A stretch of DNA of 64,000 bases. It comes from Saccharomonospora sp. NB11. Its GTDB lineage: Bacteria > Actinomycetota > Actinomycetes > Mycobacteriales > Pseudonocardiaceae. The notes under the pieces were generated by a model. It ran no database searches, was not told the origin of the DNA, and saw only the letters and a program-made list of their open reading frames with translations. Positions 16,841-62,325 of the stretch are shown here, piece after piece. Position 1 is the stretch's first letter; the number at the start of each line of letters is the position of its first letter. The stretch is taken from positions 62,001-126,000 of the forward strand of contig NZ_JACBJG010000002.1 in the NCBI RefSeq assembly GCF_015910535.1, written 5' to 3'. Position numbers and translations under genes: made by a program.

Positions 16841-17056
16841 GCGTGTCCGCAGCTCCGGTACGCGTGTCCGCAGCTCCGGTACGCGTGTCCGCAGCTCCGG
16901 TACGCGTGTCCGCAGCTCCGGTACGCGTGTCCGCAGCTCCGGTACGCGTGTCCGCAGCTCCGGTACGCGTGTCCGCAGCTGCGACGCGAGGACGCGTACG
17001 CAGACTGCGGACACGCCGACACCCGGTGCGGACACACGTCGCTGAACCGCGGACAC
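16841..17056. repeat. Expanded 21-bp tandem array with inverted copies after a stop codon
   Basis: The unit GCGTGTCCGCAG+CTCCGGTAC is repeated six times without change (16841-16966) plus a partial seventh (16967-16980). Degenerate inverted copies follow: CTGCGGACACGC (17005-17016), TGCGGACAC (17027-17035) and CGCGGACAC (17048-17056). The partial unit pairs perfectly with 17005-17016 (12 bp, 26-nt loop). It fills the gap between convergent genes and so may stop both transcripts. Related 21-bp repeats occur at 19101-19200 and 62263-62325. Confidence 0.9.
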
Positions 17057-17084
17057 GATGCGAGGCGGCGGCGGGCTCCCCACC

Positions 17085-17807
17085 TCAGGCGCCGGCCGCC
17101 GCCTCCACCTTCGCGACGACGGCACGCTCGACCGCGTCCTTGTCCAGCCCGAGCCCGGACAGCGGCCCCGTCCCGTCCTCGTCGTCCAACAACGCCAGCA
17201 GGACGTGCTCGGTCCCGATGTAGTTGTGCCCCATGCGCAGGGCCTGCCGGGACGTCAACTCCAGGACCTTGCGGGCGTTCTGGTCGTACGGGATCAGCTC
17301 GGGCACCTCGTCCTCGCGCGGCGGCAGGACCGAGCTCACGGCCTCGCGCACCGCACTCGCGGTCACTCCCTGGTCCTCCAGCACCATGGCCGCGATCGCC
17401 TGAGGCTCGCTGAGCAGGCCCAACGCCAGATGCGCGGGGGTGATGAGGGAATTACCCGCCGCCCGCGCTTCCTCCTGCGCAGCCATGATCGTCTTACGGG
17501 CACGCGGAGTGAAGCGCTGGAACCCTTCGGACGGGTCGAGCGTCAGCGGCTCCGACTTCGGCACGAACCGTTTCTGGGCGGCCTGCTTGCTGACCCCCAT
17601 GCTCCGGCCGATGTCGGTCCAGGACGCACCCGACCGCCGCGCCTGGTCGACGAAGTGGCCGATGAGGTGGTCCGCCACGTCGCCGAGGTGCTCGGCCAGC
17701 AACACCGCGTCGGAGAGCTGTTCGAGGATGTCGGGACGCGTCTTCTTGATCGCGTCGATGAGGTCGTCGAGCCGGATCGTCGGGGGCTTGATGGACTTGT
17801 CCGTCAT
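17085..17807 (-). CDS. Clp_N (ClpA/C N-domain) protein with helix-turn-helix
   Basis: 240 aa and no ATPase domain. Residues 61-82 (SWTDIGRSMGVSKQAAQKRF) are a good helix-turn-helix. Residues 97-235 carry the double Clp_N repeat (FTPRARKTIMAAQEEAR...ITPAHLALGLL, then YDQNARKVLELTSRQA...IGTEHVLLALL). Clp N-domains recognise substrates and adaptors; stand-alone actinobacterial versions are poorly characterised. The promoter TTGACG-N18-TATCGT ends 6 bp before ATG, so the mRNA is leaderless. It is covered by two palindromes at 17810-17855, suggesting autoregulation through its own helix-turn-helix. Confidence 0.85.
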   Translation of the reverse strand: MTDKSIKPPTIRLDDLIDAIKKTRPDILEQLSDAVLLAEHLGDVADHLIGHFVDQARRSGASWTDIGRSMGVSKQAAQKRFVPKSEPLTLDPSEGFQRFTPRARKTIMAAQEEARAAGNSLITPAHLALGLLSEPQAIAAMVLEDQGVTASAVREAVSSVLPPREDEVPELIPYDQNARKVLELTSRQALRMGHNYIGTEHVLLALLDDEDGTGPLSGLGLDKDAVERAVVAKVEAAAGA

Positions 17808-17809
17808 GC

Positions 17810-17855
17810 GTCAACGATAGGTTGACGATCCTGCTATCGTCAACCTGGTGTTGAC
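17810..17855. promoter_or_regulatory. Two GTCAAC-N5-GTTGAC operators over the Clp_N gene promoter
   Basis: GTCAACgatagGTTGAC at 17810-17826 and GTCAACctggtGTTGAC at 17839-17855, centres 29 bp apart. Between them AGGTTGACGAT and ATCGTCAACCT also form an 11-bp inverted repeat. On the minus strand they contain TTGACG (-35, 17838-17843) and TATCGT (-10, 17814-17819). Repression by a dimeric helix-turn-helix protein is likely, perhaps by the downstream gene product itself. Confidence 0.7.
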
Positions 17856-17860
17856 GCCAT

Positions 17861-19039
17861 TCACGACGCGGACCTCGACTTCGACGAGCTGGCCGCCCGA
17901 CGCGCCGCCACGAACAGTCCCAGCGCCACGATCCCGGCCACGGCCGCCACGACGGGAAGCTGCGCGAGGCCACCGGCCCCGAGCACCGCACCACCGATCG
18001 CCCCTCCCGCGGCGACACCGAGGTAGGTGCCCGACGTGTTTAACGCGAGCGCCTGCGTGGCCACCGGTCCCGCGAGCAGATGGAGCCGCGCCTGGACCGC
18101 GGGCGAGTTCCAGAAGGCGGCCCCACCCCACACCGCCACCACCGGCACCAGCAGCACGACCGGCACCGGTCGCCACGGCCAGAGCGCCAGGAGCGCCGCC
18201 ATCGCGGCGACGAAGGCCGCGACCCCGGCGATCAGGGCGCGGTCCGGACCCCATCGATCGGTCGCGACACCGCCCGCCCAGATGCCGAGCATCCCCGCCG
18301 CACCCGACACCGCGAACAGCACACCACGCTGTCCCGCCCCGGCGTCGGCCAGCGCGTCGACGTAGGGCGCGAGGTAGGTGAGCACCATCATCGACCCGAG
18401 CATGAGCACGAGATTCGCCGCGAGCCCGAGGGACACGGCGGGACGCACCAGGATCGCGAGCTGCTGCCGCACGGGCAGCGCCTCCCGCACTCCCGTGCCC
18501 GGCGGGAGAACGAACCGGGCCGCCACGCCGAAGACCAGGCCCGCGACGGCCATGAATGCGAACGTCGTCCGCCACCCGAACGCTCCCCCGATCCACGTGC
18601 CCACGGGCACGCCCACGGCGATCGCGCCGGTGACCCCGAACGCCACCACCGCCACGTACCGGCCCACCCGCTCCGCCGGCGCGAGCGCGGCCGCTGTGCC
18701 GAACAGCACGGGCGTCGCCGCGGCGGCCGCCAACGCGGCGAGCACCCGCAACGCCACCAGCGTCGGATAGTCGGGCGCACCCGCGGCGAGCGCATTGGCG
18801 AGGGTGAACACCGCCGCCGCCGTGCCCAGGAGGGCACGCCCGCAGATGCGCGCGGCCCCGATCGCGATGACCGGCGAGGCGATCGCGACGGTGAGGGAGA
18901 AGGCGGTCACCAGCTGCCCGGCCACCGCCTCACTCACCGCCAGGTCGGCGGCGATCTCCGGGATGACACCGGCGATCACGTAGTCGTCGGTGTAGAAGAC
19001 GAGGGCTCCCACACCGAGCACGAGAAGCCAGACGGGCAC
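17861..19039 (-). CDS. MFS transporter, drug/sugar efflux type
   Basis: 392 aa with about twelve hydrophobic segments. The first begins at residue 2 (PVWLLVLGVGALVFYTDDYVIAG), and a GVPVGTWIG motif in helix 5 fits the DHA1 antiporter group (AraJ/YdhP-like). The GTG start at 19039 lies six bases after TACTCT (19046-19051, minus), so a leaderless mRNA is likely. It sits 53 bp upstream of the Clp_N gene on the same strand. The substrate is unknown; an efflux role is inferred from family similarity. Confidence 0.82.
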   Translation of the reverse strand: MPVWLLVLGVGALVFYTDDYVIAGVIPEIAADLAVSEAVAGQLVTAFSLTVAIASPVIAIGAARICGRALLGTAAAVFTLANALAAGAPDYPTLVALRVLAALAAAAATPVLFGTAAALAPAERVGRYVAVVAFGVTGAIAVGVPVGTWIGGAFGWRTTFAFMAVAGLVFGVAARFVLPPGTGVREALPVRQQLAILVRPAVSLGLAANLVLMLGSMMVLTYLAPYVDALADAGAGQRGVLFAVSGAAGMLGIWAGGVATDRWGPDRALIAGVAAFVAAMAALLALWPWRPVPVVLLVPVVAVWGGAAFWNSPAVQARLHLLAGPVATQALALNTSGTYLGVAAGGAIGGAVLGAGGLAQLPVVAAVAGIVALGLFVAARRAASSSKSRSAS

Positions 19040-19100
19040 CGTCGGAGAGTACTCACCACCGCCGACGCACCGCACGCGATTTCCGTCGCTCCGGGGCGGG

Positions 19101-19200
19101 GACACCCGCACGCGTGCGAGAAGTGCGGGCACACGTTCGCAGAGCGCGGACACGCGTACGGGAAGTGCGGACACGCGTGCGCAAGGCGAGGACACGCCTG
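19101..19200. repeat. Degenerate 21-bp-period repeat after the VWA gene stop
   Basis: Successive 21-bp units read AGTGCGGGCACACG..., AGCGCGGACACGCG..., AGTGCGGACACGCG... and GGCGAGGACACGCC.... Read on the minus strand, the first GCGTGTCC begins 10 nt after the VWA stop codon (19208). Same family as 16841-17056 and 62263-62325. Confidence 0.75.
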
Positions 19201-19207
19201 GGCGACG

Positions 19208-21160
19208 TCAGGCTCGACGGTGATGCAGGTAGTTGCTCACCACGGCAGCACCGAGGCCGTCGAGGTCGGGTGCCACCACCCGTCCCCCACCGCGCCGGGC
19301 GAGCAGCTCGACGAACGCCGTGAGTCTGGGGTCGTCGCCGAGGCGGAACACGGTGAGCGAGGCGCGGAGCCGGGCCAGTCGGTCCACTTCGGAAAGTGTC
19401 TTCGCCAGGGTGCGGGGGCTCGGCGGGTAGGAGAACTCGGCCTCGCCGTCCCCCTCCAGGTGTGCTGTCGGCTCCCCGTCGGTCACCAGCAACACCACGG
19501 GCACGGCGTCCGGGTGCCGCCTCAAATGCCGCTCGGCGAGCAGCAGTGCGTGGTGGGCGTTGGTGCCCTGTTCCCACGTACCCTCCAGCCCCACGAGCTC
19601 ACCGATGCGCACCGACTGCGCGTACCGGCCGAACGTCACGACCTGCAGCGCGTCGCCGCGGAACCGCGTGGTGATCAGGTGGTGCAACGCCAACGCGGTG
19701 CGTTTCATGGGCAGCCACCGGCCCTCGGACACCATCGACCACGACGTGTCCACGCACAGTGCCACGGCCGCGCGCGCCCGATGCTCGGTCTCGGCGACCT
19801 CCACGTCGGCCACGTCGAGCCGGATCGGGCCGGAACGGTCGCTCGCCGCGGTGCGCAGCACGGCGTTGCGCAGGGTCTGCGACACGGCCCACGGTTCGCT
19901 GTCCCCGAACTCCCACGGCCGCGTGGATCCGGTGGGTTCTCCCGCCGCGCCCGCCGAGGCGGTGTCCCGTCGGCCGGTCCGGCTCCGCAGTACACGGACG
20001 ACGTCGGCCAGCGCCGTCTCGCCGAGTCGGCGCAGCGCCCTCGGCGTCAGGCGTAGCGTTCCGTCGGGAGCACGCTCGACGACGCCCTGTTCCCGCAACG
20101 CTCGTTCCAGTTCGGACAGTCGGCGCGCTGCGACACCGGCGTCCGGTCCAAGCTGCTCCTCCAACGCCTCAATGTCGATGTCCTCCAGCCGAGCCCCCGG
20201 ATACGACTGGGAGAGCTGCTCGGCCAGCGCGTCGAGCTCCGAGAGATCGGTCATCGCACGGACGCCGTCGGCCAGCCCCAGCGGGTCGTCGCCACGGAAG
20301 CGCTCGGCCGACGTCCAGTCCTGGCCGGGGCGCAGGTCGCGCAGCAGCGAGTCGAGCTGCGCCACCTGCTGCGCGATGCGCGGGTCCCCGAACGCCTGTG
20401 CGGAGAGCTCGGCCAGTTCCTGTCGCTGCTCGGGGGTCATCGAGTTCAACGTGCGCTGGGCCGCGGAGGCCCGGCGCGCGAGCACGTCCACCAGCTCGTC
20501 GATCGTTCGCGGGTTCTCGGGGAAGAACTCCCCGTGCCGTCGCATGAACTCGGCGAATCGTTGCTCCACGTCGCCGTAGCCCTGGGCGTGCGCGGCGAGG
20601 AGAGCGTTGAGGTCGGCGAGCATGCGACCGACCCGCTCGACGTCCTCGGGCGAGGTGGACCGCAGGGCGTCCTTCATGCCCTCGAACCGCGACTGCAACA
20701 ACTGCTGGCCCAGCAGCTCCCGGATGCGTTCGTAGTCCCGTCGACCGGTCTCGGTGGCCCACTCGTAGTCGGCGAGTTCGCTGACGGCGGCAGCCGTGCC
20801 CGAGGGCAGCGCATCCAGTTGCGCCTCGCGGAATCGCGCCTCATCGGACGGGTCGGCGAACGCGGCACGCCGCTCGGCCGCCACCGCCTCGTCCAGCAGG
20901 CGTCGCACCTCCTGGAGCGTGCCGTCGAGGCGGTGCCGACGCTGGATTTCGGACCGCCGCTGCCAGAGTCGACGGGTCAGCTCGTCCAGTCCCGGCGTCG
21001 ACCGGGTGCCACGACGCAGCAGTTCGTCGAGCGCCGCACGCGGCGACGCGCCCGCCATCACGTCGGAGCCGAGCGCGTCGACCGCTTCCCGCAAGTCCGG
21101 CGGCGGAGCCAGCGGATCGGGACCGCCGTGGTAGGGACCGTACGAATAGGACTCGGCCAT
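19208..21160 (-). CDS. VWA-domain protein partnered with an AAA+ ATPase (Rv0959-like)
   Basis: 650 aa. The first 400 residues are charged and helical (several heptad-like stretches rich in Glu, Arg and Leu); the C-terminal VWA domain starts near 460 with a MIDAS DTSWS motif at 471-475 and a later VTDGEPT. No signal peptide is seen. It starts 12 bp after the AAA+ gene at 21173 on the same strand, an operon seen as Rv0958-Rv0959 in M. tuberculosis. Such pairs resemble Mg-chelatase ChlI/ChlD and MoxR-VWA chaperones; the client is unknown. Confidence 0.85.
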   Translation of the reverse strand: MAESYSYGPYHGGPDPLAPPPDLREAVDALGSDVMAGASPRAALDELLRRGTRSTPGLDELTRRLWQRRSEIQRRHRLDGTLQEVRRLLDEAVAAERRAAFADPSDEARFREAQLDALPSGTAAAVSELADYEWATETGRRDYERIRELLGQQLLQSRFEGMKDALRSTSPEDVERVGRMLADLNALLAAHAQGYGDVEQRFAEFMRRHGEFFPENPRTIDELVDVLARRASAAQRTLNSMTPEQRQELAELSAQAFGDPRIAQQVAQLDSLLRDLRPGQDWTSAERFRGDDPLGLADGVRAMTDLSELDALAEQLSQSYPGARLEDIDIEALEEQLGPDAGVAARRLSELERALREQGVVERAPDGTLRLTPRALRRLGETALADVVRVLRSRTGRRDTASAGAAGEPTGSTRPWEFGDSEPWAVSQTLRNAVLRTAASDRSGPIRLDVADVEVAETEHRARAAVALCVDTSWSMVSEGRWLPMKRTALALHHLITTRFRGDALQVVTFGRYAQSVRIGELVGLEGTWEQGTNAHHALLLAERHLRRHPDAVPVVLLVTDGEPTAHLEGDGEAEFSYPPSPRTLAKTLSEVDRLARLRASLTVFRLGDDPRLTAFVELLARRGGGRVVAPDLDGLGAAVVSNYLHHRRA

Positions 21161-21172
21161 ACCCGCTCCTCG

Positions 21173-22594
21173 CTAGGGGCCGTACACCGCGGTGGAGCCG
21201 TCGACGTCCTTGGCGACCCGGCGGGCCAGGTACAGCGATTCGAGCGCGAGCTCCACAGCGGACGCCAGGCGTGGGGCGGGCTCGTCGGCCGAGACGCCCG
21301 CTCGCTGCGCCACCTCGTGCAGCACGGGGAGTTCCGGCAACGCGGCGAGCAGCTCGGCACCGGTGACCCGCTCCCCGGTGGCGACGAGGTGCCCGTCGGC
21401 CACCGCGTCGGCGAGAGGTCGCAGGTCGAGGCCCGCGAAGAGTTCGCGGGCGGTCTCCGCGACGGCCCGTCGCAACAGATGCACCAGGTGTTCGTTCTCG
21501 CGCCCTTCCTCGCCAGGCTCGAACTCGATCTTGCCGCGCACCACGTCGGGGACGGCGTCGAGATCGATCGGCCGGGCCACGGCGGGTCGCTCCCCCGTGA
21601 GCGCCGAACGTCGGAGCGCGGCGGCGGCCACGGTCTCGGCCGCGGCGACCGCGAACCGCGCCGACACTCCCGATCGCTGGTCCACCACCGTCGAGTCGCG
21701 CAGGTTGCGGACGAACCGCGCCAGCACCGACACCAGCGGGTCGCCGACCTCGGCCACGAGCCGGGCCTCCTGCCGCACCACGTTCACCTCGGCGGCGACG
21801 TCGAGCGGGTAGTGAGTCCGCACCTCGGCTCCGAAACGGTCTTTGAGCGGCGTGATGATGCGCCCGCGGTTCGTGTAGTCCTCGGGGTTGGCGGTGGTGA
21901 CCAGCAGCACGTCCAACGGCAGCCGGAGCGTGTACCCGCGGATCTGGATGTCGCGTTCCTCCATCACGTTCAGCAGCGCCACCTGGATCCGCTCGGCGAG
22001 GTCGGGCAGCTCGTTCACCGCGACGATGCCCCGGTGGGCCCTGGGCACGAGGCCGTAGTGGATGGTCTCGGGATCGCCGAGACTGCGGCCCTCGGCGACC
22101 CGGACGGGGTCGACGTCGCCGATCAGGTCACCGACGGAGGTGTCCGGGGTGGCGAGTTTCTCGGTGTAACGGGCCGACCGGTGCAACCACGCCACGGGCA
22201 GCTCGTCCCCCAGTTCCTCCGCGCGGCGACGCGACACGGGCGTGATCGGGGCGAGCGGGTGTTCGGCGAGTTCCGAGTCCTCGATGACGGGGGTCCACTC
22301 GTCGAGCAGCCCGGCGAGCGTGCGCAGCAGGCGGGTCTTTCCCTGCCCCCGCTCACCGAGCAGGATCACATCGTGCCCGGCGAGCAGTGCCCGTTCGAGC
22401 TGAGGCAACACGGTGCGGGAGAAACCGACGATCCCCGGCCACGGATTCTCCCCGGCGCGCAGGGCAGCCAGCAGGTTCTCGCGGATCTCGCTCTTGACGC
22501 TCCGGGGCCGGTACCCGGCAGCACGTAGGTCACCCGCCGTGCGGGGCAGGTCCGCGGGAGGGGAAGGCGAGATCGAGGACTGTGGAGACGTCAC
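21173..22594 (-). CDS. AAA+ ATPase, Mg-chelatase/MoxR-like (Rv0958-like)
   Basis: 473 aa. Walker A is GERGQGKT (80-87), with sensor/Walker B features around IVAVNELPDLAERIQVALLNVMEE and TTANPEDYTN, as in the ChlI/MoxR clade. The C-terminal 150 residues form the lid plus an extra helical domain. It starts with GTG at 22594. It forms an operon with the VWA protein and is divergent (67 bp) from the unknown gene at 22662. It probably remodels a protein complex with its VWA partner; it is not a magnesium chelatase of chlorophyll synthesis, since no partner genes are present. Confidence 0.85.
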   Translation of the reverse strand: MTSPQSSISPSPPADLPRTAGDLRAAGYRPRSVKSEIRENLLAALRAGENPWPGIVGFSRTVLPQLERALLAGHDVILLGERGQGKTRLLRTLAGLLDEWTPVIEDSELAEHPLAPITPVSRRRAEELGDELPVAWLHRSARYTEKLATPDTSVGDLIGDVDPVRVAEGRSLGDPETIHYGLVPRAHRGIVAVNELPDLAERIQVALLNVMEERDIQIRGYTLRLPLDVLLVTTANPEDYTNRGRIITPLKDRFGAEVRTHYPLDVAAEVNVVRQEARLVAEVGDPLVSVLARFVRNLRDSTVVDQRSGVSARFAVAAAETVAAAALRRSALTGERPAVARPIDLDAVPDVVRGKIEFEPGEEGRENEHLVHLLRRAVAETARELFAGLDLRPLADAVADGHLVATGERVTGAELLAALPELPVLHEVAQRAGVSADEPAPRLASAVELALESLYLARRVAKDVDGSTAVYGP

Positions 22595-22661
22595 GACATC
22601 GACGCTACTGCCGCCCTCGCCACACGTCGACGTCGACCCGCGGCCGGTAGGCTCGATCCTC

Positions 22662-23471
22662 GTGTGTTGTCCCAGTGCGACTCTCGCCGTGTGGTCGTCG
22701 GCCTGGCTGTCCGGCTCGGCCGCGCCCGACGACGTGCTCGACGCCCTCGCGGTGTGGGGTGAGGCCCATGAGGTGGTGGCTCACGACTCGGCGACCGCCG
22801 CAGCCTTCGACGTCCCGGTGGACGGCGAGGGTGCCGCCCCGCCGGCACGGTTGCTCGCCTCGCTCCGGACGCTGGGCATCACCGACGGACGCCTGGTGCT
22901 GCCCGTGGCGGGCGACGTCCGGGGACTCGGCGCGGGCGGACCGTTCGCCTCGGCGGCGTTGCGCGCGGGTGAGGCGCTGGTCTTCGCCGACCTCGGATTC
23001 GGGGTCGTGCCCCGTCACCTCGCGGAAGGGCTGTGGCGCTGGACCGTGTACGCGCTGGCCGACCATCCGACCACCGGACGGCCCGTGCCGGAGTACGTGC
23101 CGCTCGGCGAGGCGGAACACGGCCTCACGGATGCGGTGCGGGACAGCGCGGGAACGTTGCAGGCGTTGGACGTGGCCCGCGAGCGTCCCGGTGTCCGGGC
23201 GGAGTTGGCGGCCCGGTTGCGGGCCCGCCCCAGGCCGGACTGGCCCGCGGGCATGCCCGGTCGAGCACTGCGGGTGCTCCAGCGGGCCGAGGAGGTCGCG
23301 GCGATCCTGGACCTCGCGAAGGCCGACGAGCCGGGCGGCGCGGTCTCGGCGTCCGGGGCCGCCCGTCGCGCACAGGCATTGCGTCCGCTCGACGACGCGG
23401 TACGCCGGGCCCGATGCGCCGCCGTGAACGAGTCGGTCCGCCTGCTCACCCGGACCTCCGAGTCGTCCTGA
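22662..23471 (+). CDS. Conserved hypothetical protein divergent to the AAA+/VWA pair
   Basis: 269 aa, not recognised. Alanine-rich, cytosolic, no membrane segment. It starts MCCPSATLAVWSSAWLSG and has a segment RLVLPVAGDVRGLGAGGPF about 90 residues in. GTG 22662 lies eight bases after TAGGCT (22648-22653), supporting a leaderless start here. Its position back-to-back with the AAA+/VWA operon suggests a shared process, but nothing in the sequence proves it. A hairpin-forming repeat follows its stop codon. Confidence 0.7.
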   Translation: MCCPSATLAVWSSAWLSGSAAPDDVLDALAVWGEAHEVVAHDSATAAAFDVPVDGEGAAPPARLLASLRTLGITDGRLVLPVAGDVRGLGAGGPFASAALRAGEALVFADLGFGVVPRHLAEGLWRWTVYALADHPTTGRPVPEYVPLGEAEHGLTDAVRDSAGTLQALDVARERPGVRAELAARLRARPRPDWPAGMPGRALRVLQRAEEVAAILDLAKADEPGGAVSASGAARRAQALRPLDDAVRRARCAAVNESVRLLTRTSESS

Positions 23472-23482
23472 CCGGATACTGC

Positions 23483-23512
23483 GGTCGACCACACCCCGGT
23501 GTGCGGTCGACC
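23483..23512. terminator. Hairpin of two GGTCGACC palindromes
   Basis: GCGGTCGACC occurs at 23481-23490 and 23503-23512; each GGTCGACC is itself a palindrome, and ACACC/GGTGT pair between them. It can fold into a stem of 8 plus 5 bp. It lies 10 nt after the stop at 23471 and 26 bp before the -10 of the next gene, so terminator or operator are both possible. Confidence 0.5.
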
Positions 23513-23551
23513 CCATGGGAGTGAGCGTCCGATCTGCCTAGCGTCACGCGG

Positions 23552-27832: not shown

Positions 27833-27875
27833 AGCAGTCCTCCAGTTCGGGGGTGTAGGGGAGTTCGAGACGACG

Positions 27876-28675
<800 letters not shown>

Positions 28676-52255: not shown

Positions 52256-52326
52256 CCTCGGGGCCCCGGCGCCACGTCGCGCGGCACTTCCCGCCGCAGG
52301 CGTTCGGCGACACCGGACCGACGGCG

Positions 52327-52890: not shown

Positions 52891-53111
52891 CCATGCCTCC
52901 TCTCGCCCGGCATTACGCCGGCAGCGAAACAAGACCGCCGATCCCGGGCCGGAACCGACCGGTTACGACAATCCCGCCACTTCGGATCGCTTCACCAGCG
53001 TAATCACAACGGCGCGATTCACATCCTTCCCGACGGTAAGCCCGCCCGGCACGCCGGTCAACGCGACGCGCGGACCACAGGGTGAGCTGCTCGTCTCCGT
53101 GACCCTCTCGA

Positions 53112-53160
53112 CATCTTTTACTTACACGAGTTACTCTATTACTCATGCAAGTAAAAGATG
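53112..53160. promoter_or_regulatory. 12-bp inverted repeat straddling a start codon
   Basis: CATCTTTTACTT (53112-53123), 25 bp, AAGTAAAAGATG (53149-53160). The right arm is codons 2-6 of the TetR gene. The span includes TCGACA-N18-TACTCT (53108-53137), so the ATG is at +1. It is AT-rich in a high-GC setting and is probably the TetR's own operator; as RNA it would hide the start codon in a loop. Confidence 0.6.
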
Positions 53161-53771: not shown

Positions 53772-53778
53772 CGGCGGC

Positions 53779-54252: not shown

Positions 54253-54489
54253 CGGGCTTCGCCTCCCTCTCCTGCGCGCGGGCCGCAGCGCTGTCAACGA
54301 GGTTCCCGCGCCGACTGTTCTCGACGCTACCCGTCATCAGGGCGCTGTGCTCGTCGCGAAACGTGTTGTCCTCCACGGCTCTGTTGCGAACCGTTCATCT
54401 ACGGTACGGCATTCGAGGGGCCGTGTAGACCCGCCGATCTGGGACGTCATCAACCCGACACATCGACACTGTCGGTCACCCACACGAGT

Positions 54490-55251
54490 CTACCCACCGG
54501 TCACTCCGCGAATCCCGGTCTTGACGAGCAAGGTGTGCAGCGTGACCGACAACGCGGCGAGTTCGTTGACCAGTTCGTCGCCCCGGGCCTTCGCGTCCGC
54601 GTCGCGTTGCCGATAGACCGGAGCCACGATCTGTTCCACGAGCCCCACCTCACGGTCGGCCGACGCGCGGAAGGCCCGCAGGTGTCGCGGCTCGATGCCG
54701 TAGTCGCTCATGGCCTTCACGGTGCGGGCGATGCGCACCGCGTCGGTGTCGTAGAAGCCCGCGGCCGTCGGCTTGACGAGACCGTACTGCCGGAGCTCGT
54801 CCAACATGGCCTCGTCGATCCCCGCCTCGCGCAGCAGGTCGCTCTGCGTCAACCGTGCCGCCGCGTCGGGGTCCGTGGCGAACTCCTCGGGCCCGGGCGC
54901 ACCCGGCACGTGGTCACCGTCGTCGACCGACGTGATCGCCACCAGCTTGCGCGGCAACCGCGGGACGGCGGAGGCGACACCGTTTCCCCGGTCGGCCGCG
55001 TCGAGCTGTTCCTTGATCACCCGAAGCGGCAGGTAGTGGTCCCGCTGGGCCGCCAGGACGAACCGCAGACGTTCCACGTCGGCGGGTCCGAACTGGCGAT
55101 AGCCGGACGGCGTGCGGGCAGGCCGGACAAGCCCCTCGGATTCGAGGAAACGAATCTTGGAGATCGTCACGTCAGGGAAATCGGGGCGCAACTGCGCCAG
55201 CACCGCCCCGATACTCAACCCCTCTCGCTGTGGCCGCCCGGCAGCCGTCAC
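54490..55251 (-). CDS. ftsR: FtsR, MerR-type regulator of cell division
   Basis: 253 aa, Rv1828-like. The N-terminal MerR domain (LSIGAVLAQLRPDFPDVTISKIRFLESEGLVRPARTPSGYRQF) is followed by a long helix and a C-terminal domain unique to this clade. In corynebacteria FtsR activates ftsZ. It overlaps garA by 4 bp, giving garA-ftsR coupling. The identification rests on family features and on the garA-DUF151 context. Confidence 0.88.
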   Translation of the reverse strand: MTAAGRPQREGLSIGAVLAQLRPDFPDVTISKIRFLESEGLVRPARTPSGYRQFGPADVERLRFVLAAQRDHYLPLRVIKEQLDAADRGNGVASAVPRLPRKLVAITSVDDGDHVPGAPGPEEFATDPDAAARLTQSDLLREAGIDEAMLDELRQYGLVKPTAAGFYDTDAVRIARTVKAMSDYGIEPRHLRAFRASADREVGLVEQIVAPVYRQRDADAKARGDELVNELAALSVTLHTLLVKTGIRGVTGG

Positions 55252-55712
55252 TGTGCCCCCTGACCCCCGTGACCGGGACCGGTCAGGAAGACGAGGCGGA
55301 ACTTGCCGATCTGCACCTCGTCGCCGCCCGACAACACGGCCTGGTCGACCGGCTCCCGGTTCACGTACGTGCCGTTGAGGCTGCCCACGTCGATCACCAC
55401 GAATTCCCCGCCCTCGCGGCGGAATTCCGCGTGCCGACGCGACACGGTCACGTCGTCGAGGAAGATGTCACTGTCCGGGTGCCGCCCCGCGCTCGTCGTG
55501 TCGCGGTCGAGCAGGAAGCGCGAACCCGCGTTGGGGCCCCGCTTCACCACCAGCAGTGCGGAGCCGGTCGGCAGCGCGTCGACGCCGGCGTCCCGCGGCT
55601 CGACCGCAGGCGCCTCGTGGCCCTCTGCCTCCGACAGGAAGTCGGCCCGAAAAACGGAGGTCCGCTCCGGAGACTGCTCCGGGGGAACACCGGGCCCGTC
55701 GTTCGTGCTCAC
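55248..55712 (-). CDS. garA: FHA-domain metabolic regulator GarA/OdhI
   Basis: 154 aa. The FHA domain covers about 65-140 with AGRHPDSDIFLDDVTVSRRHAEF and VIDVGSLNGTYVN. Unphosphorylated GarA/OdhI inhibits 2-oxoglutarate dehydrogenase and affects glutamate metabolism; kinase phosphorylation of an N-terminal ETTS motif makes it fold on itself. Here the motif reads E16-R17-T18-S19: the second Thr (PknB site, Thr22 in Mtb) is kept while the first (PknG site, Thr21) is Arg. The GTG start at 55712 has AAGGAG eight bases upstream. Confidence 0.93.
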   Translation of the reverse strand: MSTNDGPGVPPEQSPERTSVFRADFLSEAEGHEAPAVEPRDAGVDALPTGSALLVVKRGPNAGSRFLLDRDTTSAGRHPDSDIFLDDVTVSRRHAEFRREGGEFVVIDVGSLNGTYVNREPVDQAVLSGGDEVQIGKFRLVFLTGPGHGGQGAQ

Positions 55713-55945
55713 CGCAAGCTCTCCTTACGCACTGGAGTGTCGTTCTCGTAAACGTGGTGTAGTCAACGTACCGTGTCGGAGGCGCCCACAGTGCCGGGGC
55801 TCCCGCATCAGTTGTCGATCACACGTCGGCAGTCGGCGGCGGCGAACAGGGTGTCCTCGACCGCATCGTGCGAGCCTCCTTCCCACGCCCTCCATGATCC
55901 ACCTGAGAGGCCCCCGAGCACAACGTGGAACGAGGAGTGCGGGCG

Positions 55946-56560
55946 TCAGGCGGTTCGGTGACGCAGGACCGCGCGCGCGATCTGCCACAGGTACAGCGCG
56001 CCCGACCACAGGTAGAGAACGACGCCCCACACCGTGAACGCGTAGGCGAACGGCCGCGCCACCTCGGCGACGGTGCCGGCCGCGTCGTGGGTCAGCAGCT
56101 GCAGCGGCAGCGCGTACATGAGGACGAAGGTCGCGCCCTTGCCGACGTAGGTGACCTCCGGCGGCGCGAAACCGTGACGCCGCAACACGAGCAGGCCGAG
56201 ACCGACGACGAGTTCACGGCCGACGAGGAGGGCGACGACCCACCAGGGCACGATGCCGCGGAGCAGGAAGGCGAGCAGGGCCGCCGCGATGTAGAGGCGG
56301 TCGGCCGCGGGGTCGAGCAACTGGCCGAGTCTCGTCGTCTGGTCGAGCAACCGGGCCAGTTTGCCGTCGAGCCAGTCGGTGACACCGCTGACGACCAGCA
56401 GGGCGAACGCCCAACCGTCCTCCTCCGGCCCCAACAGGAGCCACAGGAACACCGGGACACCGGCGAGCCGGAGGAGGGACAGGAGATTGGGGATCGTCGT
56501 GAGCTGCCGCAGCAACGACGGCTCACCGTCCGTCGCGCCGGCCGACCGGGCTTTCGTCAC
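55946..56560 (-). CDS. CDP-alcohol phosphatidyltransferase (PgsA2-like)
   Basis: 204 aa with about six hydrophobic helices. The active-site signature D-x2-DG-x2-AR-x8-G-x3-D-x3-D is complete (DWLDGKLAR...GQLLDPAAD, about residues 61-86). It transfers a phosphatidyl group from CDP-diacylglycerol to an alcohol; the position upstream of garA matches Rv1822 (pgsA2), annotated as phosphatidylglycerophosphate or cardiolipin synthase. The GTG start is at 56560. A 233-bp gap to garA holds the garA promoter region. Confidence 0.88.
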   Translation of the reverse strand: MTKARSAGATDGEPSLLRQLTTIPNLLSLLRLAGVPVFLWLLLGPEEDGWAFALLVVSGVTDWLDGKLARLLDQTTRLGQLLDPAADRLYIAAALLAFLLRGIVPWWVVALLVGRELVVGLGLLVLRRHGFAPPEVTYVGKGATFVLMYALPLQLLTHDAAGTVAEVARPFAYAFTVWGVVLYLWSGALYLWQIARAVLRHRTA

Positions 56561-56593
56561 CCGACCACCGTATCTGGCGGCAGCTCACCCCGA

Positions 56594-56884
56594 TCACGAG
56601 GAGCGGTGGTAGCTCCAGCCCTGCCTCCGCAGGGCCTCGTTGGTGAGAGCCTGGGGTCGGCCCTGGTGATCGACACCCATCCATCGGGGTCTGCCCGATC
56701 CGCTTTCGAGGACGTAGGGGCGGCCGCGACTCCACACGACCGTGCACGGAGTGGTCGGCGGACACGGCGTGTCGGGGGACTCGGGAGCAGGCTCCGTCGA
56801 GTCGGCGACGGCCGTCAGGGACGGCGCGCTCGCCCCGGCTCGGTCGATGGGAACGTCGGTACGGCTGTCCTCTTCGGCACTCAT
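56594..56884 (-). CDS. Small hypothetical protein upstream of the pgsA2-like gene
   Basis: 96 aa from ATG 56884, with AGGG five bases upstream. The first half is acidic and Pro/Ser-rich (disordered); the second half (about 48-96) has a compact block TVVWSRGRPYVLESGSGRPRWMGVDHQGRPQALTNEALRRQGW. No membrane segment. It ends 33 bp before the pgsA2-like start on the same strand, so it is probably co-transcribed. Not recognised. Confidence 0.55.
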   Translation of the reverse strand: MSAEEDSRTDVPIDRAGASAPSLTAVADSTEPAPESPDTPCPPTTPCTVVWSRGRPYVLESGSGRPRWMGVDHQGRPQALTNEALRRQGWSYHRSS

Positions 56885-56930
56885 AGCACCCTGCACTCGC
56901 TCTCGGTGAAACATCACCTGTGGGATTACC

Positions 56931-56972
56931 TGTGAGCGACACCTCACACCTTCGCGCGAGATGTCGCTCACA
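56931..56972. promoter_or_regulatory. 11-bp inverted repeat upstream of the small-protein gene
   Basis: TGTGAGCGACA (56931-56941), 20 bp, TGTCGCTCACA (56962-56972). TGTGAG also pairs with CTCACA at 56943-56948, and a further TGTCGCTC occurs near 57020. It lies between the acyl-CoA synthetase stop (57086) and the start at 56884: operator or terminator. Confidence 0.5.
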
Positions 56973-57085
56973 TTCCCATCGGCGCAGCGCACCGAATCGT
57001 TAGCAGTTCGTTCACCGAACGTGTCGCTCGGTCGAGTGAATCCGACGGTCGAGGTCTTGCCCGACCGCTCGCCGTCCCTCCCGCC

Positions 57086-58813
57086 TCAGCGGTTCTTCAG
57101 GGACGGGAAGTCCTCCTCGCGGAACTCCCCGGCGGGTCGGCCGTCCGTCCTGGCGTGTTCCCGGCCCCGCAGCTCGACCCTGCGGATCTTGCCCGAAATG
57201 GTCTTCGGCAGCTCGGCGAACTCGAGTCGCCGGATCCGCTTGTACGGCGCCAGGTTCTTCCTCGCGAACGCGAGGATGCTCTCCGCGGTCTCGGCGGTCG
57301 GTTCGGCCCCGTTCGCCAACACCACGTACGCCTTGGGCACCGAGAGCCGGATCTCGTCGGGAGCGGGAACCACGGCCGCCTCGGCCACCGCCTCGTGCTC
57401 CAGCAGGACGCTCTCCAACTCGAACGGCGAGATGCGGTAGTCGGAAGACTTGAAGACGTCGTCCGTGCGCCCCACGTACGTGACGTAGCCGTCGTCGTCG
57501 ACGGTGCCGACGTCCCCGGTGTGGTAGTAGCCGCCCGCGAACGCGCTGTCGGTGCGCTCCTCGTCGCCCGCGTAGCCGGTCATCAGTCCGACGGGCCGGC
57601 TGCTCAGATCGAGGCAGATCTCGCCCTCGCGCGCGGGCCCTCCGGTGACCGGGTCGACCAGCACCACGTCGAAACCGGGCACGGGCCGCCCCATCGAACC
57701 CGCCTTCACGGCCTGCCCCGGCGTGTTGGCGATCTGCACGCTCGTCTCGGTCTGGCCGAACCCGTCGCGGATCGTCACCCCCCACGCCTGGCGCACCTGC
57801 TCGATGACCTCCGGGTTCAACGGCTCGCCCGCGCCCACGACCTTGCGCGGTGGGTTCCGCAGGCTCGTCAGGTCCGCCTGGATGAGCATGCGCCACACCG
57901 TCGGCGGGGCGCAGAAGCTCGTCACCCCGCAGCGGTCGATCTGCTCCATCAGCCGGTTCGCGTCGAAGCGCCCGTAGTTGTAGAGGAAGACGGTGGCTTC
58001 GGCGTTCCACGGCGCGAAGACGTTGCTCCACGCGTGCTTGGCCCAGCCGGGGGACGAGATGTTGAGGTGCACGTCGCCGGGTTCGAGGCCGATCCAGTAC
58101 ATCGTGGACAGGTGGCCGACGGGGTACGAGACGTGGGTGTGCCGCACGAGCTTCGGCTTCGCCGTCGTCCCCGACGTGAAGTACAGCAGCAGCGGGTCGT
58201 CGGAGCGGGTCGGCCCGTCCGGGGTGAACACCGCCTCGCTCGTCGCGGAGTCGGCGAACGACTCCCAGCCCGCCACCCGCTCACCCACCGCGATGCGCGT
58301 GTAGTCGCCCTCCACCTCGGCGAACGTCGCGGTGTCGGCGTCGCGGACCACCACGTGCCTCGCACCGCCCCGGTCCACGCGGTCGCGCAGGTCGGCGGCG
58401 CCCAGCAACGTGGACGCCGGGATGATCACCGCGCCGAGCTTGACGCACGCCAGGATGGTCTCCCACAGCTCGACCTGGTTGCCGAGCATGAGGATCACCC
58501 GGTCGCCGCGCCGCACCCCCAGGCCACGCAGCCAGTTGGCCACCTGGTTCGACCGGCGGGACAGCTCGGGGAACGTCCAGCGGTTCTCCGAGCCGTCCTC
58601 CTCCACGATCCACAGAGCGGGCCGCTGAGCGTTGCGGTCGTCGGCGGCGATGCGGTCGAACCAGTCCAACGCCCAGTTGAACTCGTCGAACCGGGGCCAG
58701 GCGAACTCCCGGCGGGCCGCCTCGTAGTCCTCCCGATGCGTCAGCAGCAGGTCACGCGCCTGCCGGAACGCCTCGTACGCCTGCGTGGAAGCCGTGTCGG
58801 CATCGTTGCCCAC
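57086..58813 (-). CDS. Acyl-CoA synthetase, AMP-forming (medium-chain/ACSM-like)
   Basis: 575 aa. Adenylation motifs: YFTSGTTAKPK (A3), GFGQTE, GYYHTGD and GRTDDVFKSSDYRISPFELES, with the C-terminal catalytic lysine in SGKIRR. It activates a carboxylic acid to its CoA ester. The similarity in layout to ACSM enzymes and to benzoate/medium-chain ligases suggests a mid-size acid. It follows the isomerase-like gene by 16 bp on the same strand, forming a two-gene catabolic unit. Confidence 0.88.
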   Translation of the reverse strand: MGNDADTASTQAYEAFRQARDLLLTHREDYEAARREFAWPRFDEFNWALDWFDRIAADDRNAQRPALWIVEEDGSENRWTFPELSRRSNQVANWLRGLGVRRGDRVILMLGNQVELWETILACVKLGAVIIPASTLLGAADLRDRVDRGGARHVVVRDADTATFAEVEGDYTRIAVGERVAGWESFADSATSEAVFTPDGPTRSDDPLLLYFTSGTTAKPKLVRHTHVSYPVGHLSTMYWIGLEPGDVHLNISSPGWAKHAWSNVFAPWNAEATVFLYNYGRFDANRLMEQIDRCGVTSFCAPPTVWRMLIQADLTSLRNPPRKVVGAGEPLNPEVIEQVRQAWGVTIRDGFGQTETSVQIANTPGQAVKAGSMGRPVPGFDVVLVDPVTGGPAREGEICLDLSSRPVGLMTGYAGDEERTDSAFAGGYYHTGDVGTVDDDGYVTYVGRTDDVFKSSDYRISPFELESVLLEHEAVAEAAVVPAPDEIRLSVPKAYVVLANGAEPTAETAESILAFARKNLAPYKRIRRLEFAELPKTISGKIRRVELRGREHARTDGRPAGEFREEDFPSLKNR

Positions 58814-58829
58814 CGGTCGTTCGCCTCCC

Positions 58830-59678
58830 TCACTCGCCGCGGAACTCGGGCTCCCGTCGTTGCAGGAACGCCTGCACCGCCTCGTTCAGGTCGTGGCTGG
58901 GCAGGAACGCGGCGTTCCAGGTCGCCACGTACCGCAACCCGGCATCGACCTGCTGTTCGGTGTTGACGGAGAGTACGTCCTTCACACCTTGGACCACCAG
59001 AGGTGGATTCGACGCGATCTCCTCGGCCATCGTCCTGGCCGCGTCGAGGGTCGCCTCGCGGTCGGGGTAGACGTCGTTGACCAGGCCGATCCGCTCGGCC
59101 CGGGCCGCGTCGATGTCCCTGCCGGTGAAGGCGAGTTCCCGCAGGTGGCCCTCGCCGATGATCGTGGCGAGCCGCTGCAGGCTGCCCATGTCGGCGACGA
59201 TGGCGACGCGCACCTCGCGCACGCTGAACTTCGCGTCGGCGCTCGCGACCCGCACGTCGGCGGCGGCGACGAGATCCAGGCCGCCGCCGATGCACCAGCC
59301 CGCCACGGCAGCGATGACCGGCTTGCGCACCCGGGCCACCGCCGTGATCGAGTCCTGCATGCGCCGCACCTCGTCGAGGAACTCGCGACGCGGCCGGGCG
59401 AGGGCGTCACCGCTGAGGTACTCCGCCCACGACGGCAGCATGGCGGCGAGGTCGAGCCCGTACGAGAAGTTGCGGCCCTCACCGGTCAGCACGATCGCGC
59501 GGACCTCGGGGTCGCGGTCGAGTTCGCCGAACGCGATCGGCAGTTCGCGCCAGAAGTCGGGGCCCATCGCATTGCCCTTGCCGGGGCCGAGCAGAGTCAC
59601 CTCGGCGACGTGCCCGGTGCGCTCGACGCGGAGGGAGACGTACTCGCCGATCTGGGTTGTGGGTTCGCTGCCAGTCAT
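58830..59678 (-). CDS. Crotonase-family enzyme with a dienoyl-CoA isomerase triad
   Basis: 282 aa from ATG 59678 (AGGA nine bases upstream; ATG 59687 is an alternative). Crotonase fold with oxyanion segments NFSYGLDLAAM and AGWCIGGGLDL. Asp135, Glu155 and Asp163 (GGGLD, REV, ADMGSL) have the same 20- and 8-residue spacing as Asp176/Glu196/Asp204 of rat delta3,5-delta2,4-dienoyl-CoA isomerase. So it probably isomerises dienoyl-CoA in unsaturated fatty acid breakdown rather than hydrating enoyl-CoA. Operon with the acyl-CoA synthetase. Confidence 0.88.
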   Translation of the reverse strand: MTGSEPTTQIGEYVSLRVERTGHVAEVTLLGPGKGNAMGPDFWRELPIAFGELDRDPEVRAIVLTGEGRNFSYGLDLAAMLPSWAEYLSGDALARPRREFLDEVRRMQDSITAVARVRKPVIAAVAGWCIGGGLDLVAAADVRVASADAKFSVREVRVAIVADMGSLQRLATIIGEGHLRELAFTGRDIDAARAERIGLVNDVYPDREATLDAARTMAEEIASNPPLVVQGVKDVLSVNTEQQVDAGLRYVATWNAAFLPSHDLNEAVQAFLQRREPEFRGE

Positions 59679-59756
59679 GGCTGTCATCCTGGCCCACGCC
59701 ACGGGGTCCACGGCAGGCAGTGAGAGCCACGTCGCTTCGGTCGGCCGACGGCCGTG

Positions 59757-60995
59757 TCACGCCCCGGGCCGCACCGCGTCGGTCGCCAGTCCGGCGACCG
59801 GGCCGACGACCACCACCGCCGGGGGACGCAGCCCCGCGTCCGCCACGGCGCGCGCCACCGTCGCGAGAGTGGACCGCACCACGCGTTCACCGCGCAGCGT
59901 GCCCTCCTGCACGACGGCCACCGGAGTGTCGGCCGGACGTCCCGCCGCGACGAGAGTGTCCGCGATGACCGCGAGCCGTTCGAGGGCCATCAGCAGCACG
60001 ACGGTGCCCCGCAGCCTGCCGAGCGCGTCCCAGTCGACCAGCGACCGCTTGTCGCCCGGTGGGACGTGTCCGGACACGACGACGACGTCGTGGGCGACAC
60101 CGCGATGGGTCACCGGCACGTCCGCCACGGCGGGCACCGAGAACGCGCTCGTCACCCCCGGCACCACCGTCACGGGTACGCCGGCCTCGGCGCACGCCTG
60201 GAGTTCCTCGAAGCCACGGCCGAAGACGTACGGGTCGCCGCCCTTGAGCCGGACCACGAAGCGGCCGGCGCGGGCATGCTCGATCAGCGTGCGGTTGATG
60301 GTCTCCTGCGCGGCGGCCCGACCGTACGGGATCTTCGCCGCGTCGACGACCTGCACGTGCGGCGACAGCTCGTCCAGCAGTTCGCGCGGCGCCAGCCGGT
60401 CGACCACGACGACGTCGGCCCGCGCCAGCAGCCGTCTGCCGCGCACCGTGATGAGCTCCGGATCGCCCGGCCCGCCACCGACCAGTGCCACGCCCGGCGT
60501 CGGGGCGGCCACGGGCTCGTGGCCGGGGTCGGCGAGCGCGGCGGTGCGCAGCGCGTCGAGGATCGCGTCGCGCACGGCGGCCGACCGTCGTGGGGAACCC
60601 CCGGACAACACGCCCACCAGCAGGCCGTCGTGGTCGCCGGTCGCGGGCGTGACGGCGCTGCCTCGGCTCGCCGCGTCGGCACGCACGCAGAACACCCGGC
60701 ACTCCTCGGCCTCGGCGGCGACCGCCGCGTTCACGTCCGGGTCGTCCGTGCACGCGAGCGCGTACCACGCACCGTCGAGGTCGCCGTGTCGAAAGGGGCG
60801 CGCGTGCCAGACCAGCTCGCCCGCGTCGGCCAGGGCCTGCACCGACGGCGTGGTCCGCGGTGCCACGAGTCGCACCACGGCGCCCGCGGCCAGCAGGCGG
60901 GGCAGCCGGCGCTGTGCGACCGTGCCGCCACCCACGACGACGACCTCGCGGCCACGGAGATCGAGTCCAGCCAAGTAGTGCTGCTCGTGCGGCAT
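59757..60995 (-). CDS. cysG: Fused precorrin-2 dehydrogenase / uroporphyrinogen-III C-methyltransferase
   Basis: 412 aa, two-part siroheme enzyme like Rv2847c. The N-terminal Rossmann part (about 1-170) has VVVVGGGTVAQRRLPRL and uses NAD+ to oxidise precorrin-2; the C-terminal SAM-binding tetrapyrrole methylase part (about 175-412) has VALVGGGPGDPELITVRG, VRLKGGDPYVFGRG and TVVPGVTSAF. It supplies siroheme for sulfite and nitrite reductases or cobalamin intermediates. ATG 60995 is taken since the Rossmann fold begins 12 residues later. Confidence 0.93.
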   Translation of the reverse strand: MPHEQHYLAGLDLRGREVVVVGGGTVAQRRLPRLLAAGAVVRLVAPRTTPSVQALADAGELVWHARPFRHGDLDGAWYALACTDDPDVNAAVAAEAEECRVFCVRADAASRGSAVTPATGDHDGLLVGVLSGGSPRRSAAVRDAILDALRTAALADPGHEPVAAPTPGVALVGGGPGDPELITVRGRRLLARADVVVVDRLAPRELLDELSPHVQVVDAAKIPYGRAAAQETINRTLIEHARAGRFVVRLKGGDPYVFGRGFEELQACAEAGVPVTVVPGVTSAFSVPAVADVPVTHRGVAHDVVVVSGHVPPGDKRSLVDWDALGRLRGTVVLLMALERLAVIADTLVAAGRPADTPVAVVQEGTLRGERVVRSTLATVARAVADAGLRPPAVVVVGPVAGLATDAVRPGA

Positions 60996-61071
60996 GGGCC
61001 ACAGCTTGCCGCCGACGGGGTGCGTGCGGCGGGTGCCGTGGCGTGGGTCTCGCCCGGGCGGGGTGGCCGTC

Positions 61072-61473
61072 TCACGCTTCGGGACGCAGCAGGTCCAGCA
61101 TCGCGGTGTTGCCGAACATCCTCGCCGTGTCCAGCGCCGACGGCTGCCCCGCGGCGGGGTCGGCACCGGCGTCGAGAAGCGCCTTCACGATCTCCGGCTC
61201 GTCCTTGAAGACGGCTCCGGCGAGCGGGCTCTGCCCCCGGTCGTTGAGCCGGTTCGGATCGGCTCCGCGTTGCAGCAACGCGCGCACGGTGGCGACGTGA
61301 CCGTGGTACGCGGCGAGCATCACCAACGTGTCGCCCTTGTCGTTGGTGAGGTTGGGCGACACCCCGGCGTCGACGTAGGCCGCCAACGTCTCGCTCTGCC
61401 CCTCGCGGGCGAGCGCGAAGACCCGGGCCCACAGTTCGAGCAGTTCCTCCGGCTCCTCGGCGGGGTCGGTCAT
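61072..61473 (-). CDS. Ankyrin-repeat protein
   Basis: 133 aa, cytosolic, about three ankyrin repeats: NDKGDTLVMLAAYHGHVATVRALLQRGADPN, NDRGQSPLAGAVFKDEPEIVKALLDAGADP and SALDTARMFGNTAMLDLL. ATG 61473 with GGGA upstream. It precedes cysG by 76 bp on the same strand. Small actinobacterial ankyrin proteins often sit by catalase or redox genes; the partner here is unknown. Confidence 0.88.
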   Translation of the reverse strand: MTDPAEEPEELLELWARVFALAREGQSETLAAYVDAGVSPNLTNDKGDTLVMLAAYHGHVATVRALLQRGADPNRLNDRGQSPLAGAVFKDEPEIVKALLDAGADPAAGQPSALDTARMFGNTAMLDLLRPEA

Positions 61474-61615
61474 GGTCCCAGCGTGCCACGCGGCAACGCG
61501 TTCCTCAGCGCACGAGCCGACCGCGTGTGGTCTGCGCCCGCCCCTCGGTGGACGCGGCGCTACCATGCACCGAACCGACGGGACGCACCCACGTCGTCGA
61601 CCACTGGAAGCGGAG

Positions 61616-62224
61616 ATGCCGGGCACCGAGCGCACCTGGGCGGGCACGACGCTCGCCGACCGGAGAGCCACCCGCCGTCGGCGGCTCCTCGATGCGGGCC
61701 TGGACCTTCTCGGTGGGGCCGACGGCGCCGTGGTGAGCGTGCGGGCGGTGTGTCGCACCGCGCGCCTCACCGAGCGGTACTTCTACGAGAACTTCACCGA
61801 CCGGGACGACTTCGTCGTCGGCGTCTACGACCACGTCGTGTCGCTCGCGCACCAGGTGCTGGTCGACGCGGTCGAGCTGGCCGGACCGCAGCCCCGCCAA
61901 CGGGCCGAAGCCGCGGTGTCGGCGTTCGTCACCCTGGTTCTCGACGATCCGCGCAAGGGGCGGGTGCTCCTGCTCGCCCCGTTCGCGGACCCCGCGCTGC
62001 GCAACGTCGGTGTGCAGCGGTTGCCGATGTTCGCCGACCTCGTGCGCGAGCAGCTATCGGACCGGGTGGACGAGGCGGATCGGACGATGACGGCCACCGC
62101 GCTGGTGGGCGGGGTGGCCAACCTGTTCGTGGCCTATCTGAGCGGGACGCTCGACGTCCCGCGGGAACGGCTGACCGCCCACTGTGTCCGGTTGGTGCTC
62201 GGCGCGGAGGCCCTGCACTCGTGA
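61616..62224 (+). CDS. TetR-family regulator
   Basis: 202 aa. Helix-turn-helix at about 20-62 (RRLLDAGLDLLGGADGAVVSVRAVCRTARLTERYFYENFTDRDDFV). ATG 61616 has GGAAG and GGAG upstream; a TACCAT -10 at 61561-61566 would begin the message near 61573. The nearest gene is the divergent ankyrin gene; the target is unknown. It ends before the repeat array that follows xylA. Confidence 0.83.
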   Translation: MPGTERTWAGTTLADRRATRRRRLLDAGLDLLGGADGAVVSVRAVCRTARLTERYFYENFTDRDDFVVGVYDHVVSLAHQVLVDAVELAGPQPRQRAEAAVSAFVTLVLDDPRKGRVLLLAPFADPALRNVGVQRLPMFADLVREQLSDRVDEADRTMTATALVGGVANLFVAYLSGTLDVPRERLTAHCVRLVLGAEALHS

Positions 62225-62262
62225 CGTCCCCGCCGCGGTGGGCACAGACCGCGACGGGAACG

Positions 62263-62325
62263 TACACGAACTGCGGACACGTGTACGCGGAGCGCGGACA
62301 CGAGTGCGCAGGCTGAGGACACGCC
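62263..62325. repeat. Degenerate 21-bp-period repeat after the xylA stop
   Basis: Three 21-bp units with cores TGCGGACACG, CGCGGACACG and TGAGGACACG. On the minus strand the first GCGTGTCC begins 9 nt after the xylA stop codon (62334). Convergent with the TetR gene. Same family as 16841-17056 and 19101-19200. Confidence 0.75.

Follow-up and report, generated by a model that had tools for sequence, protein, structure and literature searches.

Why do short direct repeats of one and the same period begin just past the stop codons of unrelated genes? The question is raised by the window, the whole 64,000-nucleotide stretch of Saccharomonospora sp. NB11 analysed here (its genome is denoted G000; G001 to G006 and G008 to G010 are genomes of the same genus). 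An earlier note on this DNA had described three such sites, beginning 5, 10 and 9 nt past a stop codon and lying in two of the three cases between convergent genes. It had proposed a mobile or amplified 3'-end element that acts in transcription termination, in mRNA 3'-end protection or in protein binding at a spacing of two helical turns. Tandem Repeats Finder places phased repeats with a shared 21-bp period at all three sites, and the gene calls reproduce the distances exactly and the convergent settings as described. What the earlier note had overlooked is a fourth array that faces the first. All four arrays are built on the 6-mer GTGTCC and are listed in Table 1.

Table 1. Arrays of 21-bp units in the window and the hairpin next to one of them
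Feature	Coordinates in the window	Strand	Position relative to genes
Array, 7 units, first six linkers identical	16841..16980	+	Starts 5 nt past the stop of the subtilase gene (15612-16835)
Facing array, 3 units	17007..17058	-	26 nt past the stop of the Clp_N gene (17085-17807)
Array, 4 units	19125..19197	-	10 nt past the stop of the VWA gene (19208-21160)
Array, 3 units	62273..62324	-	9 nt past the stop of the xylose-isomerase-like gene (62334-63503)
Strong hairpin, -30.6 kcal/mol	62224..62267	-	Past the 62273 array, where the convergent gene 61616-62224 ends

Arrays of the window and the genes that carry them

The period of 21 spans 6.7 copies with a 100% match at 16841-16980 and was also detected by Tandem Repeats Finder at 19109-19197 and 62262-62302. 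The first two arrays of Table 1 face each other across one convergent gap, and the array at 19125-19197 precedes the next gene on the same strand (17861-19039). At the orthologous place of the latter, behind the VWA gene, arrays are present in G003, G001 and G009. At the site of the first array G003 has three units against seven in G000, where the six identical linkers in a row point to a recent expansion and might serve as a strain marker.

The genes upstream of the four arrays have little in common. By Pfam they encode a subtilase (Peptidase_S8), a Clp_N protein, a VWA_2 protein (26.3 bits, just under the cut-off of 27) and a xylose-isomerase-like TIM barrel. Elsewhere, 16 of 43 further upstream genes were scanned; all 16 match Pfam, and they are equally diverse, including RecX, IMPDH, a chaperonin, EutC, a LeuA-type enzyme and PfkB. 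Where both genes of a tandem pair were scanned, the two mostly look unrelated, as in EutC followed by a Mn catalase, with a possible exception in DUF4233 followed by nucleoside diphosphate kinase. Rfam at its gathering score has no match in the window. Perfect or near-perfect tandem repeats of 10 bp, unrelated to the arrays, occur at 9550-9590 and 27876-27934.

A phased family of units at gene ends

The G000 assembly comprises 4.30 Mb in 29 contigs. When exact pairs of GCGTGTCCGC were sought in it with spacers of 9-13 nt, all 44 pairs had a spacer of 11 nt, which sets the units 21 bp apart, and the reversed-pattern control gave none; with up to three mismatches there were 301 pairs against 16 in the control. 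Spacing and placement were examined in a sample of 883,681 bases consisting of the window and 60 further stretches, 41 of them chosen for a listed array and 19 taken at round positions away from listed arrays. Such a sample gives no array density, while position relative to genes can be used because the array search is blind to genes. Across 61 stretches of G000, GTGTCC recurs at distances of 21 (149 times), 42 (91 times) and 63 (54 times), and every other distance up to 70 occurs at most three times. In 20 further stretches of G003 the same three distances were found 77, 45 and 20 times and all others at most twice. With these distances nearly exclusive, the spacing of two helical turns suggested earlier is supported. 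In G249, a genome of the genus g26, 5 of 29 unit steps measure 22 or 23 bp.

Adjacent linkers vary while the 21-bp phase is kept, the 149 neighbouring pairs differing at 870 positions. Arrays were called by the word GTGTCC, and its constancy inside them is partly by construction. Among 218 units of the own genome, the otherwise variable linker carries a G at position 16, six bases ahead of the next 6-mer, which is conserved although it was not in the search pattern. The unit consensus, drawn from eight sets, is non-palindromic and has neither a GTAG nor a CGTC tag. Mean core mismatches in units 1 to 5 are 0.38, 0.25, 0.69, 0.81 and 1.21, so that the 5' units are well kept and the distal ones decayed, a trend that is partly due to the array-extension procedure and is similar in arrays not behind a same-strand gene. 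Several arrays, at L157:505-619, L169:3727-3799 and L177:5118-5190, also include units of another type, roughly GCATGTYGGCGTCG, which to the eye seem to sit where facing arrays meet. The recurrence of one word across genera, in exact two-turn phase but with linkers free to vary, is most readily accounted for by a protein with one recognition site in every 21 bp of duplex; copying of whole units would preserve the 21 bp as well.

Placement was counted for 69 arrays with GTGTCC in 21-bp phase in 884 kb, on gene calls from a purpose-made codon model whose individual boundaries may be off. Convergent gaps hold 29 of them, tandem gaps 34 and divergent gaps two, with two more inside called genes and two at stretch ends. 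The 29 convergent arrays, out of 65 intergenic ones, stand on 13.6% of intergenic DNA, and the two divergent ones compare with a 32.5% share of non-array intergenic DNA (p = 6e-9). Copies scattered without regard to stop codons had been named as the finding that would count against the proposed element; instead, 63 of the 65 intergenic arrays lie behind genes, at a median of 12 nt past the same-strand stop (range 2-127 nt). Genome-wide copies and gene-end placement together bear out an amplified, dispersed family at gene ends. A protein-coding repeat was ruled out, as the three stop distances first reported put the units in different frames and 67 of the 69 arrays lie outside called genes.

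The arrays had also been read in the direction of their upstream gene. This holds in convergent gaps, where 25 of 29 arrays are nearer to the stop of the gene they follow, but in tandem gaps only as a non-significant excess, with 21 arrays running with the genes and 13 against them (p = 0.23). Counted by gap, 15 of 28 tandem gaps have same-direction arrays only, seven have opposite ones only and six have both. Of the pairs formed by neighbouring arrays, 30 are in facing orientation and one is back to back; the 30 include cases of one place counted in more than one species. The picture is less clean in a looser count, based on single 9-mers with up to one mismatch: the order +- exceeds -+ by 11 to 2 in convergent gaps and 13 to 6 in tandem gaps, and two or more units occur in 26 of 95 convergent gaps, in 43 of 296 tandem ones and in 8 of 144 divergent ones. 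Facing pairs also have a helical phase (Rayleigh p 0.0014 at 10.5 bp, the best of nine periods), which was not counted as evidence because a shared junction would also produce it.

Several known elements resemble the arrays in one respect or another. Iterons of plasmid origins are repeated directly at intervals of about two helical turns and lie on the same face of the helix. The arrays share their two-turn direct repeats but are dispersed over dozens of chromosomal gene ends, and the 65 intergenic arrays do not cluster at a replication origin. The Sal-box terminators behind mammalian rRNA genes are tandem directional sites just past the transcript end and are bound by TTF-I; the arrays are alike as tandem directional, here putative, protein sites, but they follow many unrelated bacterial genes and not one eukaryotic gene type. 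Enrichment in convergent gaps and two-turn phasing would both suit a topological element of the kind proposed for REPs and BIMEs, at which gyrase or a nucleoid protein would land between converging units. With 34 of the 65 arrays behind tandem genes, however, such a role is very unlikely.

The likeness to REPs goes further in placement than in structure. In the available part of the account by Di Nocera 2013 (PMC3733652), REPs are palindromes of 20-40 bp tagged GTAG or CGTC and associated with RAYT genes, and REPs and BIMEs are dispersed behind coding regions, between convergent and unidirectional ORFs. Measured against that part of the account, the arrays are similarly dispersed at gene ends (29 convergent and 34 tandem of 65, with two divergent), their units are often oppositely oriented, and variable bodies are combined with a short conserved tag. 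They differ from the elements described there in that their units are non-palindromic, follow each other in direct phase and carry GTGTCC instead of GTAG or CGTC. Nor are the arrays associated with Y1/RAYT transposases (PF01797), which were found in 5 of 14 genomes rich in arrays and in 4 of 10 others. RAYT-linked REPs were therefore rejected on palindrome, tag and RAYT association alike. Within the titles and abstracts searched, the literature holds no description of such a repeat family.

Transcript ends and a candidate barrier

Intrinsic terminators occupy the same place behind the stop codon but consist of a G+C-rich hairpin, which the arrays lack. In the first 80 nt of 48 arrays there is no perfect stem of at least 8 bp (loop 3-10), and a 44-nt fold of -25 kcal/mol or lower is found in 4 of 48 arrays, as against 38 of 678 stretches of coding DNA and 96 of 260 array-free ends. 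Since array starts fold strongly about as rarely as coding DNA, mRNA 3'-end protection, as suggested earlier, is not supported in a form that works by structure. Hairpins of -25 kcal/mol or lower follow within 90 nt of the array in 6 of 48 cases, compared with 101 of 259 after the stop of array-free ends (p = 2.5e-4), whereas regions of equal length taken from the stop have hairpins in 21 of 48 cases with an array and 136 of 259 without one, no significant lack (p = 0.28). Replacement of hairpins by arrays was set aside, as only the comparison after the array is significant and the equal-length comparison of whole regions is not.

Hairpins and arrays can also be combined. Among six arrays at least 50 nt from the stop, five have a hairpin between stop and array (-24.8 to -42.8 kcal/mol), four of the hairpins being at -25 kcal/mol or lower and the one at -24.8 having a T run. 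We infer that the arrays stand at, or just beyond, the transcript end. Array and hairpin occur together at the xylA-like gene in several species and also at L184.

Facing pairs can themselves fold, and they might be hairpin terminators whose arms have grown by duplication. The ratio of 30 facing pairs to one, a palindrome with two-unit arms at L266 and the strong hairpin formed by single facing units in G009 would agree with such an origin. It is nonetheless highly improbable: for 21 of 48 arrays, the DNA downstream offers neither an inverted unit within 100 nt nor an array within 200 nt, perfect stems are missing from the starts of all 48, and the linkers of facing arrays are mostly mismatched by eye.

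The composition of the array RNA raises another possibility. It contains little A, and C and T are more frequent in it than in other 3' regions (median C minus G of 0.056 against 0.0); C exceeds G in the arrays of G000, G014, G288, G249 and G031, and the two are about equal in those of G008 and G191. Such RNA could be a rut-like, unstructured and pyrimidine-rich loading site past the stop codon, and the arrays would then be Rho-dependent terminators. That they begin where ribosomes leave the mRNA and contain few strong hairpins is in keeping with this idea. The balance of C and G in G008 and G191 is not, nor are the opposite-only arrays in 7 of 28 tandem gaps, and to our knowledge Rho requires neither a fixed hexamer nor an exact spacing of 21 nt, so that Rho dependence is decidedly unlikely. 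The opposite-only arrays fit an action on the duplex better than an RNA signal.

An action on the duplex could work as follows. A sequence-specific protein would have one predicted site in each 21-bp unit, made up of GTGTCC and the G that precedes it by six bases. As 21 bp corresponds to two turns of B-DNA, all sites of an array would lie on one face of the helix, and the candidate protein could line up there as a row. The row would sit behind the stop codon, or behind the hairpin of the gene if there is one, and form a barrier by which transcription is stopped or insulated where the transcription unit ends; paired arrays face each other. Gene-end position, the scarcity of arrays in divergent gaps, the facing pairs and the cases in which a hairpin comes first favour a barrier; protein binding, duplex DNA as the target and the effect on transcription are what we infer from the arrangement. 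Several results count against it: the 6-mer is not significantly better kept in the comparison with G009, aligned array regions have gaps in the proportion usual for intergenic DNA, equal-length regions have no significant lack of hairpins, array and hairpin coexist at some genes, one array splits an ABC gene pair in G249, and some unit steps of G249 are longer than 21 bp. That the gene-end arrays are phased duplex sites of one protein and a barrier to transcription is proposed tentatively, with somewhat less than an even chance of being right. In a bolder and unlikely version, a dedicated protein polymerises on the phased GTGTCC sites and ends transcription at dozens of genes while the family of sites spreads between genomes. 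It would be a bacterial counterpart of protein roadblocks, replacing or backing up hairpins and taking over gene ends.

How G+C-rich actinobacteria end transcripts without U-tract hairpins is only partly understood, according to the available portion of one study (PMC8269248). It counts 892 less-structured 3' ends, of open mechanism, in Streptomyces clavuligerus and 535 highly structured ones. By analogy, the less-structured ends in that portion are where array-like elements could act, and phased, non-palindromic sites at gene ends may offer a direct entry into transcript ending in these bacteria.

Spread, gain and loss of arrays

A scan of 297 genomes for GTGTCC at 21 bp with at most one mismatch, which sees only arrays with this word, found genome-wide families (at least 12 triple hits) in eight of the 12 own-genus genomes, all four of g4, the single g10 genome, both of g21, the single g28 genome, and two genomes each of g26 and g33, with few or none elsewhere. 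The families of other genera have different linkers and a reversed control near 0, and linkers are specific to the species. A class-wide family was ruled out, as outside the window's family no genome in the class sample of 394 has more than five triple hits.

Distribution is patchy even within a genus. Among 19 genomes of g26, triple hits number 71 in G249, 49 in G288, 7 in G191 and 0 to 2 in the other 16. All seven of G191 lie in one 20-kb stretch among metabolic genes. In the stretches L247 and L248 (G191:C1:6284001-6318000), five arrays stand in a metabolic-gene region and have linkers like those of Prauserella, as if genes had been acquired horizontally along with the arrays behind them. 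Arrays common to the species of a genus, and present in some close relatives yet not in others, provide a ready comparison of array-rich and array-poor sisters.

The xylA-like protein was matched in 10 genomes of the genus, and six of them have three units there: G000, G001 and G003, and with a different unit G002, G008 and G004. Of the others, G009 has one decayed unit, G010 one GTGTCC and G005 none, and in G006 the match is cut off. Within the arrays the 6-mer diverges less than the linkers between G000 and G003 (12/249 against 89/421, p = 1e-9, with 12.1% in the rest of the aligned DNA) and between G000 and G001 (3/94 against 49/165, p = 3e-8), while the difference between G000 and G009 is not significant (4/37 against 13/59, p = 0.18); the G000 arrays in these comparisons were picked by the 6-mer, whose divergence would also be lowered by unit conversion or shifted alignment. 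In alignments of G000 and G003, gaps are as frequent relative to mismatches in array regions with 25-nt flanks (35 to 205) as in other intergenic DNA (279 to 1601); for the arrays by themselves the figures are 13 to 101. A shift of units in the alignment is the suspected cause of these gaps because the 6-mers of both genomes keep phase.

Gain was examined at two array-bearing genes of G249 by comparison with 16 other g26 genomes, which are array-poor (0-2 triple hits) except for G288. The first is an ABC ATPase gene, which in G249 is separated from the permease gene after it by 365 bp containing eight GTGTCC. The two genes overlap by 8 or 11 nt in 13 sister genomes; G288, G281 and G302 gave distant homologues only and fall outside this comparison. 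The second G249 gene is followed by an array and a convergent neighbour, whereas in all 16 sisters its neighbour is on the same strand, 29-62 bp away, across a gap free of GTGTCC. An array that splits a gene pair overlapping in the sisters points to insertion, not to growth at a native terminator, and the arrival of an array can accompany a changed gene neighbourhood.

Within the own genus, G003 has about 470 extra bp with a short ORF and an array (L277:2679-3147) between two genes that are some 10 bp apart in G000. At L184, G000 has four units between the stop and a hairpin (-36.4 kcal/mol), and G003 has the hairpin alone (-37.0 kcal/mol). Taken with the split ABC pair, these sequence comparisons indicate that arrays can come and go as blocks of DNA. 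Fixed ends and a target duplication would mark a MITE or another insertion element; in the few empty sites inspected by eye, neither a fixed 3' end of the arrays nor an obvious duplication was seen. New arrays might thus arrive inside inserted DNA and then grow or shrink by whole units, and from such changes a linker type specific to the species would result.

The main rival to the barrier draws on the same comparisons. The arrays could be a selfish or neutral repeat, copied by machinery that recognises GTGTCC and purged by selection from all but gene-end positions, with no function for the host. What keeps the rival strong is the split gene pair in G249, where one would hardly expect a terminator, together with the arrays that run against the genes and the patchiness in g26; species-specific linkers and the arrays present in only one of G000 and G003 also suit it. 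The presence of arrays at the xylA-like gene in 6 of 10 genomes, a 6-mer that in two of three comparisons has diverged less than the linkers, the few arrays in divergent gaps and the missing association with Y1/RAYT transposases weigh the other way, and a selfish origin is on balance somewhat unlikely. Even without function, the arrays would be unusual among dispersed repeats in that helical phase, and not a palindrome, defines them.

A phage family was also considered and rejected. The triple pattern picked out 79 stretches of viral contigs; 57 arrays lie outside called genes, a count for which the gene model is unreliable on low-G+C contigs, and they have unrelated linkers and no shared context. 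One viral contig carries, at L322:10836-10890, a palindromic 21-bp repeat with GTGTCC on both strands and a linker unlike those of the bacterial arrays.
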